NCBI GenBank assembly: GCA_026397505.1
Contig: JAPLUR010000091.1
Span: 1-48,013 of the forward strand
Direction: 5' to 3'
Length of the DNA stretch: 48,013 nt
Source: Candidatus Zixiibacteriota bacterium
Lineage (GTDB): Bacteria; Zixibacteria; MSB-5A5; GN15; PGXB01
Shown in pieces: positions 40,849 to 47,627 of the stretch. Under the pieces are notes generated by a model that was not told the origin of the DNA, ran no database searches, and saw only the letters and a program-made list of their open reading frames with translations. The position numbers were made by a program, and so were the translations under genes. Position 1 is the stretch's first letter. Each line of letters opens with the position of its first letter.

Positions 40849-42357
40849 ATGAATCGAAAACTCCTTTTTACGTTGATCGCATTTTTGCTCATGTTCCTTC
40901 TGCTCGAGACGGCCGCCCGGATTATAGAGTCGGCGCTGGCGCGAAAAGCGACTTCAGCGGACATCCAGCCGGGCTGGCAGGCGGAGTTTTTCAAATCATT
41001 CTTTGACTGGCACGAGCCGGATCCGGATCTCCTCTGGCGTTTCAAACCCAATCTCGATAATCCCCTTATTAAAACAAATGCGGAACACTTCCTCGGTAAT
41101 GAAATTCCAGCCGGAAAAGAACCAAAGAGCTATCGTATCCTTCTTCTGGGCGATTCCTCGCCGGTGGGCCTGGGGCTGAAATCAAGACGCCAGGCTTTTG
41201 GGGAAATTCTGCGCTCGTTTCTCGAGACAGAGTACGCCGGCACCCGAAGCATTGAGTTAATCAATGCCGCTGTCTCCGGATACTCCAGCGAGCAGATCGC
41301 CCGTTTCCTGAAACTGCGAGGGTGGAAATATCAACCGGACCTGGTCACTCTATATTGTGGAAATAATGACGCCTCCATCTCCGGCGCTTTTTCCGACCGG
41401 CAATTGATGAGTGAACAGAAGCTGATTCCCATTAGAAAACTCTTTTCTCATCTGGCGTTTTATCGCCTGCTGCGGGATTTGCTTACCGGCCGAGAGCATC
41501 AGGCCAATTCAGTCCAGGCGCTGCAGATCCGCGTTGATGCAGACCGGTATGGAGAAAACCTGACTGATATTGCCAACCAATGCCGGAGCCATAATTGCCC
41601 TCTTTTGATACTCAAACCGCCGGTGCCGCGCCTCTGGCCGGCCGGACTACAGTTTAAGCCTCTCACCCATGTCACTGGTGATAATGGCCGCCTGATTTTT
41701 CCGGAGGAGATGATTTCTCTTCTCGGACGAAACCTCAAGTACTGCCTCGACCGCGAGAGATTTTTGCACCTTTATGGTCGAGGCGACATACTTACTCAGA
41801 ACGTTTATCTTGCTTCCTATGATGATTCGCTGGCCCCTGTTGATGCTGTCAGGCATTATCGCCGGCAGCTTGAGACCGGAAAAGGAAATCCGGTCTTGCT
41901 CAATAATCTGGGGGTTTCATTCTGGCAAAGCCGGGAATATGATTCGGCTGATTATTATCTGAAAGAATCGCGACGTCAATATCAGAAAGTGCATTCGGAG
42001 GACTTGAGCCCTGCGGTTCTTTCGGCCGGGTCGCCGTTTCTGTTCAATATCGGGATCAATTTGCTTTCTCAAACCCCTGACAAATTGGATGCCGGTTCCA
42101 GTCAGGACGCTTTCATATATCTTGATTCCGCGCTTCAGGCTGACTATTTCTCGCTGCGGATCAAGAGGGATTATTGGAGGAAAATAGACAGTTTCGTCGG
42201 GCGGAAAGGTGTGACCGTAATAGACCTCCCGGTGATATTTGAAAAGAACGGGGGCGAGAAGCTCTTTATCGATCACTGCCATCCCACACCGCAGGGGCAC
42301 CTGCTGATCGCAAATGCTTTACTGAAAGCTGTTAATCAGGCAACTCTCATAAAATAG
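40849..42357 (+). CDS. SGNH/GDSL-type membrane-anchored hydrolase
   Basis: This 502-residue protein has an N-terminal membrane anchor (LFTLIAFLLMFLLLE). Block I GDS (residues 101-103) is in LLLGDSSPVGLGL, block III GNND in LYCGNND near residue 171, and the Asp-His block in DHCHP near 475-478. A TPR-like insert (LLNNLGVSFWQSREYDSADYYLKES) is near residues 348-375. The fold hydrolyses esters, often on cell-surface polymers; the substrate is unknown. It diverges from the sirtuin operon, with 85 bases between the start codons. Confidence 0.8.
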   Translation: MNRKLLFTLIAFLLMFLLLETAARIIESALARKATSADIQPGWQAEFFKSFFDWHEPDPDLLWRFKPNLDNPLIKTNAEHFLGNEIPAGKEPKSYRILLLGDSSPVGLGLKSRRQAFGEILRSFLETEYAGTRSIELINAAVSGYSSEQIARFLKLRGWKYQPDLVTLYCGNNDASISGAFSDRQLMSEQKLIPIRKLFSHLAFYRLLRDLLTGREHQANSVQALQIRVDADRYGENLTDIANQCRSHNCPLLILKPPVPRLWPAGLQFKPLTHVTGDNGRLIFPEEMISLLGRNLKYCLDRERFLHLYGRGDILTQNVYLASYDDSLAPVDAVRHYRRQLETGKGNPVLLNNLGVSFWQSREYDSADYYLKESRRQYQKVHSEDLSPAVLSAGSPFLFNIGINLLSQTPDKLDAGSSQDAFIYLDSALQADYFSLRIKRDYWRKIDSFVGRKGVTVIDLPVIFEKNGGEKLFIDHCHPTPQGHLLIANALLKAVNQATLIK

Positions 42358-42662: not shown

Positions 42663-43076
42663 ATTTTTCCCTTGACAGCAAGGGGCTGGGGGCATATTTT
42701 TACACTGAAGGTTGTTGGTTCTTTATTTCATATTTGGTTTCTGACCAGAACGTATATTAGAACATTTATTCAGATTGGTTAAGACCATTATGGCCAAGCT
42801 CTGATTCTTGTTTTGGCAGCAGTTACAGGGGGAGTTTTTCATCCTTGCCTTTCTTCTTCTTACCTGTCGGTTGATTGACCATACAGAATATAGATAGGGA
42901 TTGTCCTCGGTGCTTTGCCACCTGTAGGAAGCAGAATCTGTTTACCGGGGATAGGGAGACGAATGGCTGATGGGTAGAGATTAGAAAGGAGTGCGCCTAT
43001 AGAAAAACCGGCTAATCAATTCTCTTTTATTCAAGTGATCTGTGGTGCGATCAAAACCGCAGTGTTCTTGACCTAC
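42663..43076 (+). repeat. Leader repeat A: promoter plus conserved non-coding region
   Basis: It is strongly similar in order and sequence to 44339-44752. It begins ATTTTTCCC-TTGACA, with TTGACA at 42672-42677 and TATTTT at 42695-42700 (17 bp). The shared part has no matched reading frame on either strand. It gives a leader of about 540 nt before the IPTL-CTERM gene at 43243. Confidence 0.75.
42672..42700 (+). promoter_or_regulatory. Sigma70 promoter of leader A
   Basis: TTGACA-N17-TATTTT, preceded by ATTTTTCCC as in the promoters at 821 and 44348. Confidence 0.7.
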
Positions 43077-43242
43077 AAAACTTAAATAATAGATGCATGT
43101 ACCTATGACAGAAGCGGGATAGAGAAAAGGACAATCGCAACTGCATGGGGACTGCGGAGACGGGTGCGAACATCTGCGAGCTATATTATCATACTATGCC
43201 CTGTAGTAATACCAAGGCAGGGAAACTGAAGGAGGTCATAAA

Positions 43243-44133
43243 ATGAAAATTAGAATGTTGTTTGGTCTTGCGGTCGGTCTGGCATGTGTCAGCGGACTTA
43301 TGATGCCCGGTGATGCCCTAGCGGGCAAGGTCAATGCGAAGGTTTGGTACTGGCACGGTATCAATTACTACGGTAACACGCAAATTGTGAACGATTACGG
43401 GACCGCATCACGCTACATAAGCACTACCTCGCACGGCAAAAAGGGATATGCCGACGCTTACGAGCGGTCGTATTATTCAAATGGATTTAAACTGGTCAAT
43501 CACGAATGGGCCCAAGACGTGAAAGGTTACAACTTCGGTGCAAAAGCGTGGCACACCGGATCCTCAGGACCCTCACCGATCAACGCCAACGAGGCGGATC
43601 TCGCTTGCTGTCCAGACACTATACCCCCCCCACCGATCCCCGGTGATACGGTAACCACGGAGTACTTCAAAATCAGTTACAGTGACGCGAGTGGGGGCAT
43701 TTTCGACATCGACATCGACTCCGTCTCCTTCCTTCAGGTCTATTTGGATGACGTTGTCGATGGCGATTCCGTTGTTAAAGACTGGAAACTAAACATCAAC
43801 GGTGAGGTCAGCCACGTCGTTCTCCGCGGTATCGCCAACTCTGGTGGAGAGGATTACGTCACATATAGTAAGGACGGACGCTTTGCCGAATTCTTGCCCA
43901 CGCTCACAGAATATCCGAATCGTGTATATGTATTGAGGTTTGGCGCGATGCATTTCACGGCGCCTGGAACCGTGGAGGGCTCTGATCTCGAGATTGCTTC
44001 GGGCCAAGAACCGCCGGATGCACCTATCCCCACCCTGACCGAATGGGGGTTAATCATCTTTGCGGTGCTGCTGGTCGGGTTTATGACCTGGGTGGTGGTT
44101 AGAAGAAGAAGGAGAGTTACGATTGGCATTTAA
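43243..44133 (+). CDS. IPTL-CTERM sorted exported protein 1
   Basis: This 296-residue protein has a signal peptide (MLFGLAVGLACVSGLMM...ALA). The C-terminus is an IPTL-CTERM signal starting near residue 262: IPTLTEWG, a hydrophobic helix (LIIFAVLLVGFMTWVVV) and RRRRRV. It is predicted to be cut by exosortase H. The body is Tyr/Asp/Gly-rich and unassigned. AAGGAGG lies before ATG 43243. The last ~35 codons and the terminator hairpin match protein 2 almost base for base, while the body differs. Confidence 0.88.
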   Translation: MKIRMLFGLAVGLACVSGLMMPGDALAGKVNAKVWYWHGINYYGNTQIVNDYGTASRYISTTSHGKKGYADAYERSYYSNGFKLVNHEWAQDVKGYNFGAKAWHTGSSGPSPINANEADLACCPDTIPPPPIPGDTVTTEYFKISYSDASGGIFDIDIDSVSFLQVYLDDVVDGDSVVKDWKLNINGEVSHVVLRGIANSGGEDYVTYSKDGRFAEFLPTLTEYPNRVYVLRFGAMHFTAPGTVEGSDLEIASGQEPPDAPIPTLTEWGLIIFAVLLVGFMTWVVVRRRRRVTIGI

Positions 44134-44178
44134 GTAAAGATTACGCTATTTCTGGCGAATTTTTCAGCCCCCCACATG

Positions 44179-44202
44179 GGAGGGGGCAGCCATGCCCCCT
44201 CC
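44179..44202 (+). terminator. Terminator hairpin of IPTL cassette 1
   Basis: GGAGGGGGCA pairs with TGCCCCCTCC around GCCA. It resembles 46480-46503. No strict T-run follows, so efficiency is uncertain. Confidence 0.6.
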
Positions 44203-44338
44203 TACTATAACAGCCTTAAAAGAATTCGGGTTGCCATTATCAGTATGGCTTTGCGCCTCCAGTATCAAGAGCTACCATTTAACTTATTGTCCGACAATAA
44301 ATATCCCAAGGTTTGTCCGCTTTAACACAAGAATCTGG

Positions 44339-44752
44339 ATTTTTCCCTTGACAGATAAGGACTGGGGGTATATTCTTATACTGAAGGTCGCTGTTTCTTC
44401 ATTACATATTTGATTACAGACCAGAACGTGTATTAGAACATTTTTTCAGATTGGTTAAGACCATTATGGCCAAGCTCTGATTCTTGTTTTGGCAACGGTT
44501 ACAGGGGGAGTTTTTCATCCTTGCCTTTCTTCTTCTTACCTGTCGGTTGATTGACCATATAGAAAATAGGTAGAGATTGTCCTCGGTGCTTCGCCACCTG
44601 TGCGAAGCAGAATCTTTTGGCCGGGGATAGAAAGCGCAATGCTTGATTATTGGGAATTGAAAAGGAGTTTTCGTAAAGAATAATAAGGTAATCAATTCGC
44701 TTTTATTCAAGTGATCTCTGATGAAGTCAAAACCGCAGGGGTTTCGATCCAT
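44339..44752 (+). repeat. Leader repeat B: promoter plus conserved non-coding region
   Basis: This is the second copy of 42663-43076, with the same order of landmarks (TTGACA promoter, a GACCAGAACG-type block, GGTTAAGACCATTATGGCC, ACCTGTCGGTTGATTGACC, and a CTCGGTGCTT hairpin GCTTCGC/GCGAAGC). A 117-codon minus frame exists only in this copy, so it is probably chance. It ends just before the Lnt-like gene. Confidence 0.75.
44348..44376 (+). promoter_or_regulatory. Sigma70 promoter of leader B
   Basis: TTGACA (44348-44353), 17-base spacer, TATTCT (44371-44376), preceded by ATTTTTCCC. Confidence 0.7.
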
Positions 44753-44766
44753 AAGGACTTTGCGCA

Positions 44767-45489
44767 ATGGAACGCAATTCAGAACAGTTCGTCAAGAGCC
44801 GGAGTGTTGACCAAGCATTTGTACAGTCACGGGAACGCTGTTGGGCTGAAGATTTCCCTTACGCCGGCGTTTCCAGTCTGCTGCTGATTATTGCCCAACT
44901 GCATAGCAAGTTCACTCCGCTGTATCTGCTGGCGCTGATTCCCTACTTCTGGCGTGTTATTCACTCCAGCCTGTGGCGTTCAGCCTTTCTCGGAACGACG
45001 CTGGCAACATCGTATGTTATTATCGCTTATGCGGACAATCTGCTGCATGCGCCATCGACTTTCGCCATTCAACTCTTCTGCTACAACCTGATCTTTGTCA
45101 GCTACGGCATCGCCGTGCTCAAAGCCAGAAAGGTCTTTGGCATAAATCCGTTGCTGCTGCTTTTTCTCTGGCTGCCGATCGAGTATGGCCGTAATCATCT
45201 CGCCGGAGTGGGACAGCTCTTCGCGCTTCCCACTGCAGATGCCGACTTAGTGACACGATTTACCTACGGGTTTCAGATTTTCATCATCCCGTTCATTGTC
45301 TTCCTTCTGAATCCGCTGCTCCTGCTGTTAGCCGGCATAGTTGTGGAATATCTCCTGCGACAGGAGGGAACAGGTCTGACCGCAAGCCCGCGCAAGTTTG
45401 TTCGCGCCACACATAGAGTTTCCTCCCGTCCCTGGTTTTACTTCCCTGATCTGCGAGCACCCCCGATCTGCGATCTGCAAGCTTTGTGA
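44767..45489 (+). CDS. Membrane protein resembling the N-terminal half of apolipoprotein N-acyltransferase
   Basis: This 240-residue protein has several hydrophobic helices (YLLALIPYFWRV, LGTTLATSYVIIAYA, FCYNLIFVSYGIAVL, NPLLLLFLWLPIEYGRNHL). The order of helices and the ALIP...WLPIEYGRNHL pattern resemble the membrane half of Lnt. The nitrilase-like catalytic half is absent. Its C-terminus after ~195 is polar and ends ICDLQAL. Start ATG 44767 follows AAGGA. It lies between leader B and IPTL-CTERM gene 2. Function inferred only from fold similarity. Confidence 0.6.
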   Translation: MERNSEQFVKSRSVDQAFVQSRERCWAEDFPYAGVSSLLLIIAQLHSKFTPLYLLALIPYFWRVIHSSLWRSAFLGTTLATSYVIIAYADNLLHAPSTFAIQLFCYNLIFVSYGIAVLKARKVFGINPLLLLFLWLPIEYGRNHLAGVGQLFALPTADADLVTRFTYGFQIFIIPFIVFLLNPLLLLLAGIVVEYLLRQEGTGLTASPRKFVRATHRVSSRPWFYFPDLRAPPICDLQAL

Positions 45490-45552
45490 TATGATATGGT
45501 AACAACCGCAGGCAGCAATGCCTGCACTCTTCAAGTGAAGGAGCCTCATAAA

Positions 45553-46434
45553 ATGAAGAAGTTACTTTTATTAAGCGCACTCTTTATCCTTTTGAGCGTG
45601 CTTTTGTCAGTTCCTACTCAAGCCTGTTGCTTCACAAATAAAGATGTGCACAACGGCACCGGCGTGGATGCCTATGATCTCGAAATCGAGGTGACGGGGC
45701 TTCGCACGGTGGAATGGCACTTCGATGGATATCTCGGTGCTTATCGTTTTGCGCAGTTCTCCACGTGGAAGGCGAATGGAAAGACTTATCTTCGGTGGTT
45801 TGATCCCAGAGACCCTGCTGGGAACCCGGCGCCTATTCCGCACTGCTCATGGGTCCACATCGGATATCAACTTAATTTACCCGCACCATATACCCATGGC
45901 TGGTGGACAGACGCGGCTGGAAATAAGATTTGGAATGGCCACATCCAGCAGCCGAGCCACTACTTCTATCCACCTTGGACTCCAGCACCTCAAGAATTCC
46001 CGATCACGAATGCTCGGCTGGTATTACGTAACGATTTTGCAGGCTGCCCATACCCGACAATAATTCGCAATATTACTTTTGCCGTTTTGCCGGAGGAGAT
46101 ACCTTTGGACTCGCTCAATGCGCAAAATGCTCATCTGGCGAGCATGCTCCAGCCTTTGGCGACCGGTCCTTTTACTATGGATTCTGTGGGCGATAGTGTC
46201 TATTTCGATATACCAACTCCAATTCCGTTTGGCAGTGTAGTGGTTTATCGTTTTGAGGGAGGCATTGGCAGTCCCAACGAGTTTGTGGACTTCGGTCAGC
46301 ACCACTGGGTTGCTCCTCCAGGAGTCATCCCCACTCTCACCGAATGGGGGTTAATCATCTTCGCCGTGCTTTTGGTCGGGTTTATGACCTGGGTGGTGGT
46401 GAGAAGAAGAAGGAGAGTTACGATCGGCATTTAA
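45553..46434 (+). CDS. IPTL-CTERM sorted exported protein 2
   Basis: This 293-residue protein has a signal peptide (LLLLSALFILLSVLLSVPTQA). An IPTL-CTERM signal starts near residue 259 (IPTLTEWG, LIIFAVLLVGFMTWVVV, RRRRRV). The body (Trp/Pro/His-rich) shows no clear relation to protein 1, yet the C-terminal ~35 codons and hairpin are nearly identical. Start ATG 45553 follows AAGGAG; the frame is open from 45496. Predicted exosortase H substrate, downstream of the Lnt-like gene. Confidence 0.88.
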   Translation: MKKLLLLSALFILLSVLLSVPTQACCFTNKDVHNGTGVDAYDLEIEVTGLRTVEWHFDGYLGAYRFAQFSTWKANGKTYLRWFDPRDPAGNPAPIPHCSWVHIGYQLNLPAPYTHGWWTDAAGNKIWNGHIQQPSHYFYPPWTPAPQEFPITNARLVLRNDFAGCPYPTIIRNITFAVLPEEIPLDSLNAQNAHLASMLQPLATGPFTMDSVGDSVYFDIPTPIPFGSVVVYRFEGGIGSPNEFVDFGQHHWVAPPGVIPTLTEWGLIIFAVLLVGFMTWVVVRRRRRVTIGI

Positions 46435-46479
46435 GTAAAGATTACGCTATTTCTGGCAATTTTGTCAGCCCCTCACATG

Positions 46480-46503
46480 GGAGGGGGCAGCAATGCTCCC
46501 TCC
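46480..46503 (+). terminator. Terminator hairpin of IPTL cassette 2
   Basis: GGAGGGGGCA pairs with TGCTCCCTCC (one G-T pair) around GCAA. It is the same element as 44179-44202. Confidence 0.6.
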
Positions 46504-46528
46504 TATTCAATAATTAGCTTAAAATATA

Positions 46529-47098
46529 TCAGGCGGCCGCGATCGGTGTCGCTTTGCGTTTCTGAAAGATTGCATGCCACTTGTAGTAATAGTACAGCCC
46601 GGCCCAGATTATCACCGGCACCAGCATGCTGTCTAATCGGGTCAGCGTTAAATCGCCATAAAATAATATTTTCCGCCAGAGAGAATGATAAATCGGCGCT
46701 CCATCCATCTGCATATGTGTGGCATAATAATTGAGAATATATATTGTCAGCCTGACCACTTGAACCGGGAAGAGAACGACAAGCCCTAATAGTAGAATTT
46801 TCAGCCGCAGTTTATAATTTACATCCGGCACGGCCATAATCAGGGCCAGAAGAAAAACGGTATTGAAACTGATATTACGCGCATTCATAAAATGCGGTTT
46901 GCCGTCGGGCGAGGGGGCGTATTTCAACGCAATAGTTTTTCCGCGCGATATCATCCCTTTGGTAAAATCGTGCGTATCGAAAACTTTTACGATTTTCTCG
47001 GTGCAAAAAGTGAGAATCGGCGTACAGATCGGCGTGGTCGCCAGCCAGAAAAGAAAAGCGGCGACAAAGAAGACCAGGAATCTAAGCAGAAACCGCAC
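46529..47098 (-). CDS. Exosortase H-associated membrane protein
   Basis: The protein has about 190 residues and multiple helices (LLRFLVFFVAAFLFWLA, NTVFLLALIMAVPDV, ILLLGLVVLFPVQVVRLTIYIL, LVPVIIWAGLYYYYKW). The pattern and position next to exosortase H match the small membrane protein that accompanies it. The frame is open to 47194, but that part is Ser/Gly-rich and overlaps the exosortase end, so I prefer GTG 47098, which overlaps the exosortase gene by 17 bases. Start uncertain. Confidence 0.75.
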   Translation of the reverse strand: MRFLLRFLVFFVAAFLFWLATTPICTPILTFCTEKIVKVFDTHDFTKGMISRGKTIALKYAPSPDGKPHFMNARNISFNTVFLLALIMAVPDVNYKLRLKILLLGLVVLFPVQVVRLTIYILNYYATHMQMDGAPIYHSLWRKILFYGDLTLTRLDSMLVPVIIWAGLYYYYKWHAIFQKRKATPIAAA

Positions 47099-47627
47099 CC
47101 GGACCGAGCGCCGTTTCTTTCTTGATCCGGCGTGACCAGAAATCCCAGATGAAGATCGCCCAGAGGATGATGATCGGCTGCCAGACATATACATGCACCT
47201 CGTTAAAAATGTCCGGATAGTGCTGTCCCATATAGAAAAGGCTTATCACCCGCCCCAGATTGAGCGCGAAAATGGCGGCCGTTCCCAGCAGAATGCCCCA
47301 TATCTTGTCTTTCAGTGTCGAGGGATAAGCGATAACGCCGGAGATCAAAATCGCCGTGGCATAGATACCGTTGCAGCCATCGACAATATCGATACTGTAC
47401 TGCGAAGTGGCCAGCATGGTCCCCGAAACATAGGAGCCGGCGCCGAAGACATTCATGAGAAAACTGCTGCAGACGGCAATAAAGGAAGTGAATGGAGAAA
47501 TGACATGCTGTCGTACCGGCAAAAGAAAGAATGCCACCACAAACAGCCCCATCACTGCCCCAAAAATCAGGTATAGCCGCAAGAGCGATCTTAAGACCGC
47601 CCTATCAATCTTCTTCTCTTTCTTCAC
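47082..47627 (-). CDS. xrtH: Exosortase H (IPTL-CTERM-specific)
   Basis: This 181-residue multi-helix membrane protein has catalytic Cys85 in DGCNGIYA, Arg126 in LNLGRVISL and His145 in NEVHVYVWQ, the exosortase catalytic set. The short length and the neighbouring IPTL-CTERM genes fit exosortase H. It cleaves the IPTL-CTERM signal and may transfer the protein to another anchor. The start is GTG 47627; only a weak upstream GGAGG is seen. Convergent with the IPTL cassettes. Confidence 0.88.
   Translation of the reverse strand: MKKEKKIDRAVLRSLLRLYLIFGAVMGLFVVAFFLLPVRQHVISPFTSFIAVCSSFLMNVFGAGSYVSGTMLATSQYSIDIVDGCNGIYATAILISGVIAYPSTLKDKIWGILLGTAAIFALNLGRVISLFYMGQHYPDIFNEVHVYVWQPIIILWAIFIWDFWSRRIKKETALGPGAVSA

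Follow-up and report, generated by a model that had tools for sequence, protein, structure and literature searches.

The 48,013 nucleotides (nt) analysed here, which we call the window, are positions 1 to 48,013 of contig JAPLUR010000091.1 from a Candidatus Zixiibacteriota bacterium (GenBank assembly GCA_026397505.1). Near the end of the window lie two genes for secreted IPTL-CTERM proteins, each preceded by a copy of the same non-coding leader (Table 1). Judged by its sequence this is an exosortase H locus, because exosortase H (XrtH) and a probable XrtH-associated protein adjoin both IPTL-CTERM proteins. The subject of this work is the gene that separates the second leader from the second IPTL-CTERM gene. 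It encodes a small membrane protein with the motif RAPP close to its C-terminus, and we read it as a member of a family of putative translation-arrest leaders for the exosortase substrates, here called cargo, that are encoded downstream.

Table 1. Features of the duplicated IPTL-CTERM locus, in window coordinates
Feature	Position	Strand	Basis
Leader copy 1, with promoter (42672-42700)	42663-43062	+	Alignment to copy 2; promoter match
Unrelated 161 nt in the place of the arrest gene, copy 1	43063-43223	+	No similarity to the arrest gene
Cargo 1, secreted IPTL-CTERM protein without arrest leader	43243-44133	+	IPTL_CTERM 25.1 bits (cut-off 20.5)
IPTL-CTERM tail 1 and 3' hairpin (44177-44204)	44026-44204	+	92% identity to tail 2
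Leader copy 2, probably supplying the arrest-leader gene with its promoter (44348-44376) and a long 5' untranslated region	44339-44738	+	85% identity to copy 1
Putative translation-arrest leader; its protein has six predicted membrane helices, is homologous to the membrane half of Lnt and carries RAPP near the C-terminus	44767-45489	+	
RAPP codons; predicted stall with the codon of the first Pro (residue 232) in the P site	45454-45465	+	Geometry from PMC10951233
Cargo 2, secreted IPTL-CTERM protein downstream of the presumed arrest leader	45553-46434	+	IPTL_CTERM 25.0 bits (cut-off 20.5)
IPTL-CTERM tail 2 and 3' hairpin (46477-46506)	46327-46506	+	92% identity to tail 1; hairpin z -4.2
Probable exosortase H-associated membrane protein	46529-47194	-	NF041730 29.7 bits (below the cut-off of 35)
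Exosortase H (XrtH)	47082-47627	-	TIGR04177 120.8 bits (cut-off 86)

A first-pass annotation, made from the letters of the sequence, had described the locus as a duplicated expression cassette, and much of that description is borne out. The two leaders are identical at 342 of 401 positions, which is more than a distant likeness, and both carry the same kind of promoter match (TTGACA-17-TATTTT and TTGACA-17-TATTCT, 10/12 each). The tails (44026-44204 and 46327-46505) are 92% identical as DNA, with the homology beginning exactly at the IPTL codons (44026/46327), and the C-terminal peptides that they encode are identical over 35 residues, the 8 differences in 105 nt all being silent. The cargo bodies are unrelated, as had been stated, with BLASTP aligning significantly only the last 39 residues. 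The G-rich terminator hairpin of the earlier description is found after each IPTL gene as a hairpin (12-13 base pairs, -25.3 and -23.4 kcal/mol, z about -4), but neither is followed by a T-run and the usual definition of an intrinsic terminator does not apply. The proposed order, with the IPTL gene next after the leader, is that of copy 1 but not of copy 2, where the 723-nt gene intervenes. Copy 1 is thus a sister cassette that has its promoter, 5' region and tail in common with copy 2 but lacks the arrest gene, and no remnant of that gene was found in the unrelated DNA that takes its place. The open reading frame (ORF) of cargo 2 is open from 45496, and its likely start is the one in Table 1, which is preceded by a Shine-Dalgarno sequence and opens a signal peptide.

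An ORF that would span the leader itself was ruled out, as stop codons break all three forward frames. Upstream of the leader genes of the family described below, the best promoter-like match scores 9.7/12, against 7.8/12 in shuffled sequence, and typically lies a few hundred nt away, which makes the long non-coding leader a probable 5' untranslated region for the arrest gene. An imperfect palindrome resembling repetitive extragenic palindromes, TCAAAACCGCAGGGGTTTTGACCTAC, stands at the end of the leader homology (43051-43077). It recurs intergenically in related genomes (L008 and L009, 1501-1530; L102, around 815-845), and the exact pattern was absent when it was searched for in the window's own genome.

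The 723-nt gene encodes 240 amino acids with the C-terminal end FPDLRAPPICDLQAL. Four homologues occur elsewhere in the genome, each immediately before a gene whose product has an exosortase-type tail, and the longest invariant run in an alignment of the five is RAPP, a few residues from the C-terminus. A profile of these five sequences was used to collect further members in the order, and the larger profile obtained in this way was searched against 132 Zixibacteria genomes of the phylum. It matched in 42 of them, of which five were dropped as weak matches or as containing full-length Lnt only, leaving 37 genomes with the family. Members are as a rule about 220-285 amino acids long, have six predicted helices and lie a median of 98 nt before the next gene. 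They resemble Lnt in their membrane domain, with 21 of 29 members matching LNT_N (PF20154, best E 3.9e-10). This is the sole domain match: the ORF stops after the membrane domain and the catalytic CN-hydrolase half of Lnt is missing, so that the family differs from Lnt both in this loss and in its added RxPP tail. Of four full-length Lnt proteins of the same phylum that were examined, none contains R[AGS]PP. The membrane domain is under purifying selection, the ratio of nonsynonymous to synonymous substitution rates being about 0.16-0.27 in three close pairs. A structure model from 10 sequences reached a predicted local distance difference test score of 69, Foldseek returned Lnt entries for it at non-significant E-values only, and a profile search of the family against the sequences of the Protein Data Bank returned nothing.

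Two further forms of the leader and its cargo were observed. On another contig of the same genome (C85; L014 408-3596) the leader-cargo pair is duplicated in tandem and both leaders end in RAPP. In a Bacteroidota metagenome-assembled genome (JASEHD010000023; L091 3980-4977) a mini-leader of 58 amino acids with two membrane helices and the end NERAPP sits 41 nt before an IPTL-type lipoprotein-like gene, which is followed by a second IPTL gene, with Kelch repeats and no leader. As a natural deletion, the mini-leader has lost most of the domain and retained the motif.

The distribution of the motif was determined in members gathered without selecting for RxPP, the complete homologues coming from Candidatus Zixiibacteriota only. 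RxPP is present near the C-terminus of all 45 complete homologues, with A, G or S as the second residue in 44; most have RAPP or RGPP, two have RSPP and one has RVPP. Among the 44 catalogued units 41 have RAPP or RGPP. In an alignment of 29 sequences, with a mean column identity of 29%, nothing is invariant except Met1 and the arginine and both prolines of RxPP. The codons of the motif are spelled in 38 different ways in 44 units, which argues for selection on the peptide. Within the window just one of the 340 ORFs of at least 60 amino acids has R[AGS]PP near its end, and it is this gene.

The position of the motif relative to the last helix is a second signature of the family. About 41 residues lie between the last helix and RxPP, and their pairwise identity is about 10%. 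Their length nevertheless hardly varies, the standard deviation being 0.36 for the 35-column stretch, compared with 13.9 before helix 1 and 5.6 after RxPP, where 0 to 24 residues follow. A measurement that does not use the alignment gives, in most members, 52 residues between the P-site residue and the middle of the last helix. Blocks of positive charge occur at the N-terminus and after helices 2, 4 and 6, a pattern that predicts a cytosolic tail and an N-out/C-in orientation of the last helix. Spacing matters for insertion-dependent release with a helix of this orientation (PMC10987492, PMC7886326), and insertion-sensing arrest peptides that have one are characterised by a tight spacing (PMC10987492). 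The combination of variable sequence and constant tail length is what would be expected of an insertion-gated arrest peptide.

The leader is also closely associated with cargo. In 38 of 39 assessable units the gene directly downstream encodes a secreted protein with an exosortase (CTERM-type) tail; 36 of these were called by pattern and two by eye, and five further units were cut off or masked. The leader proteins form one homology cluster, whereas the cargo bodies fall into 30 unrelated groups. Using size classes set in this analysis, a small XrtH-type exosortase was found among the matches listed in 35 of the 37 genomes with the family and in 15 of the 95 without it (Fisher p about 1e-17, uncorrected for phylogeny). 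It lies within 6 kb of 16 of 60 family genes. Counted from the side of the cargo, 23 of 79 IPTL genes have the leader, or 21 of 49 outside two IPTL-rich genomes. Upstream ORFs that end in RxPP without being homologous to the family were sought before the other IPTL genes and essentially none were found; where RxPP lies close upstream, it belongs to the Lnt-like family. Two related genomes (G114:C1 and G115:C1) have 18 and 12 IPTL-CTERM matches, nearly all without a RAPP leader, and in this they differ from the other genomes.

Arrest at RAPP or RGPP is experimentally established in other proteins. The known arrest peptides of this type include ApdA, ApdP, ApcA and the RQH family (PMC7897499, PMC10951233, PMC10987492, PMC12992588), and several have been shown to stall (PMC12992588). 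With these peptides the family has in common R-A/G-P-P near the C-terminus, a membrane or export signal, a length below 300 amino acids and a gene just upstream of another on the same strand. Three features of RAPP-type arrest peptides are found in it, namely a conserved RxPP (with A or G, or more weakly S, as its second residue), a small membrane protein encoded directly upstream of another gene and a distance from helix to motif that suits insertion-dependent release. It differs in that the whole family is built on a six-helix scaffold derived from Lnt, in that its stalling is putative, and in what comes next: the known RAPP/RGPP peptides precede secA, secDF, yidC or a metal or TonB gene, and the family precedes exosortase cargo. 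Where a Sec/YidC monitor would have a component of the localisation machinery downstream, the family has exosortase-type cargo genes.

A parallel in geometry is MifM, the YidC monitor of Bacillus subtilis, which shares a narrow, conserved distance from the last N-out/C-in helix to the arrest site; MifM distances cluster tightly around a median of 54 (PMC10987492), and the corresponding value here is about 52 to the helix centre. MifM has another arrest motif and scaffold and controls an insertase, while the family leader would control a cargo. CruR of Bordetella pertussis is likewise an upstream ORF with C-terminal RAPP whose target lies outside the Sec/YidC machinery (PMC12992588, PMC10951233), but it is copper-responsive, belongs to another protein family and controls a TonB-dependent receptor operon. 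As for the XrtH/IPTL-CTERM system (TIGR04177, TIGR04174), the locus has its XrtH, its probable XrtH-associated protein and its cargo, and differs from it in the arrest-type leader gene upstream of the cargo. No mention of such a leader upstream of XrtH cargo was found in the literature searched. Exosortases are likewise not mentioned in the RAPP arrest-peptide papers searched, and the main text of a 2025 survey makes no mention of CTERM proteins. Full-text searches for arrest combined with exosortases returned nothing relevant, within incomplete coverage.

Taken together, these observations suggest that the gene and its homologues form a new family whose members are putative translation-arrest leaders for exosortase cargo, and that copy 2 is an operon of arrest leader and cargo, a reading to which we give a probability of roughly 0.7. 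The family, in its 37 of 132 genomes, probably controls when or where exosortase cargo is made. In the mechanism that we propose, the six helices of the leader would enter the membrane while the protein is being made, and with RAP in the P site the ribosome would stall before the second proline. The inserted domain would hold the stalled ribosome at the translocon, the stall would control the following IPTL-CTERM gene, and pulling by the last helix, or completed insertion, would release it. Copy 1, having no arrest gene, would escape this control. What the sequences themselves show is the gene, its homology, the invariant RxPP, the fixed spacing between helix and motif, the link to exosortase cargo and the co-occurrence with an XrtH-type exosortase. 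From experiments on other RAPP peptides we infer that the ribosome may stall at RxPP; that such a stall could raise or localise cargo expression, and that membrane insertion could be the signal, we only infer.

Several observations weigh against this reading. The majority of IPTL genes (56 of 79) have no such leader, and the known arrest leaders in the literature searched lie before genes for machinery or transport rather than before substrates of a sorting enzyme. RAPP alone is insufficient for arrest, because most RAPP-like motifs tested in proteins of Escherichia coli and Bacillus subtilis do not stall (PMC10987492), and context therefore matters. Nor does masking by the footprint of the stalled ribosome generally free the Shine-Dalgarno sequence of the cargo: over 43 units the mean rank was 0.51 relative to masks placed elsewhere. 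A read-out of the SecM type is thus unsupported across the family; it is not universal among arrest peptides, and in view of the negative result some other form of coupling, through transcription or through the stability or location of the mRNA, is at least as likely. In the tandem units on contig C85 the RAPP codons can, by eye, pair with the downstream Shine-Dalgarno sequence.

One form that the coupling might take is a spatial gate, which we put forward tentatively and think rather less likely to be right than wrong. The inserted, stalled ribosome would pin the mRNA at the translocon, and cargo would be translated only at a properly inserted leader, near XrtH. If true, it would connect programmed ribosome arrest with exosortase sorting for the first time, and a single leader family would serve many unrelated cargos.

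The conserved tail could also be explained as a protein-level signal (a binding site, a protease tag, or a docking motif for XrtH or a partner), in which case the Lnt-like protein might be an accessory chaperone or lipid-handling factor for the cargo. Strict linkage to cargo, co-occurrence with an XrtH-type exosortase and purifying selection on the membrane domain are all compatible with such a signal, and an accessory factor would suit the similarity to a phospholipid-handling enzyme. We nevertheless consider it unlikely. The invariant residues are exactly the known arrest motif with its permitted variants, and the 58-amino-acid form keeps RAPP without most of the domain. The motif stands at a near-constant distance from the helix and a variable one from the C-terminus, which fits a ruler set by the ribosomal tunnel better than a docking tag, and an exosortase signal would need a helix after the motif, where none follows. 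It is very improbable that the leader of about 400 nt is instead a structured regulatory RNA, a riboswitch or thermosensor controlling both cassettes. Its length, its conservation between the copies and the promoter-like boxes found a few hundred nt before related leader genes too would be in keeping with this, but neither copy matches Rfam, neither folds more stably than its shuffles (z -0.02 and -0.31), the sequence is absent, short fragments apart, from the 59 relatives compared, and 85% identity is accounted for by simple duplication.

The first-pass annotation had favoured exchange of the protein bodies by recombination between conserved DNA flanks, which would make the inserted gene incidental. 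The duplicated leader and the mosaic junction at the IPTL motif support this, and such a junction recurs on contig C17 of a genome from another family (G033). There two IPTL genes lie side by side with unrelated bodies and a common stretch of 198 nt (L102 676-873 and 1499-1696) that is 96% identical as DNA; it begins about 2 nt ahead of the IPTL motif and extends through the 3' hairpin. As in the window, one of the two genes, here the first, follows a RAPP leader and the other does not, and the body of this first gene clusters with that of cargo 2. Within each genome the 3' untranslated parts resemble each other, but those of one genome are unrelated to those of the other; the tails therefore seem to be homogenised within genomes, a pattern that gene conversion or recent re-use of a tail would give. 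Copying or conversion between neighbouring genes is the probable origin of the shared tails. This part of the earlier proposal stands; the part concerning the 5' flank does not. The leader DNA was not found elsewhere in its own genome, and as a mobile or widespread flank it can be rejected, since in 59 relatives it is absent apart from fragments of 30-41 nt. Being common to no other genome tested, nucleotide flanks of this kind cannot be a widespread site of exchange. The search that had been suggested, for leaders joined to IPTL genes with other bodies, succeeds only at the level of the leader protein, whose family is the one found before the 30 groups of cargo. The constant 5' element is a protein-coding gene with an arrest motif, and this explains more than cassette shuffling does. 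The gene accompanies CTERM cargo across the phylum and is hence not incidental, and a mosaic leaves RxPP and its fixed spacing unexplained; that the locus is mainly a recombination cassette is quite improbable.

An arrest-leader family would have consequences beyond this locus. The known arrest peptides at protein-localisation genes precede the machinery (secA, secDF, yidC), whereas this family precedes the cargo of a sorting enzyme, and its spread through the phylum would extend arrest-based control to exosortase sorting, a process for which no study of regulation was found in the literature searched. What appears to be new, as far as sequence comparison goes, is a putative arrest-peptide family with a new scaffold, a new class of target and a phylum-wide distribution, and what had looked like the duplication of a non-coding leader is re-explained by the arrest gene. 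The 45 candidate arrest proteins, with a near-fixed distance from helix to arrest site and a nearly random linker, provide a natural test set for the ruler model of insertion. A search for the closest relative among named genomes, based on XrtH, found nothing. Directly upstream of the duplicated locus, at 40849-42357, lies a gene for a GDSL/SGNH-hydrolase-like protein.

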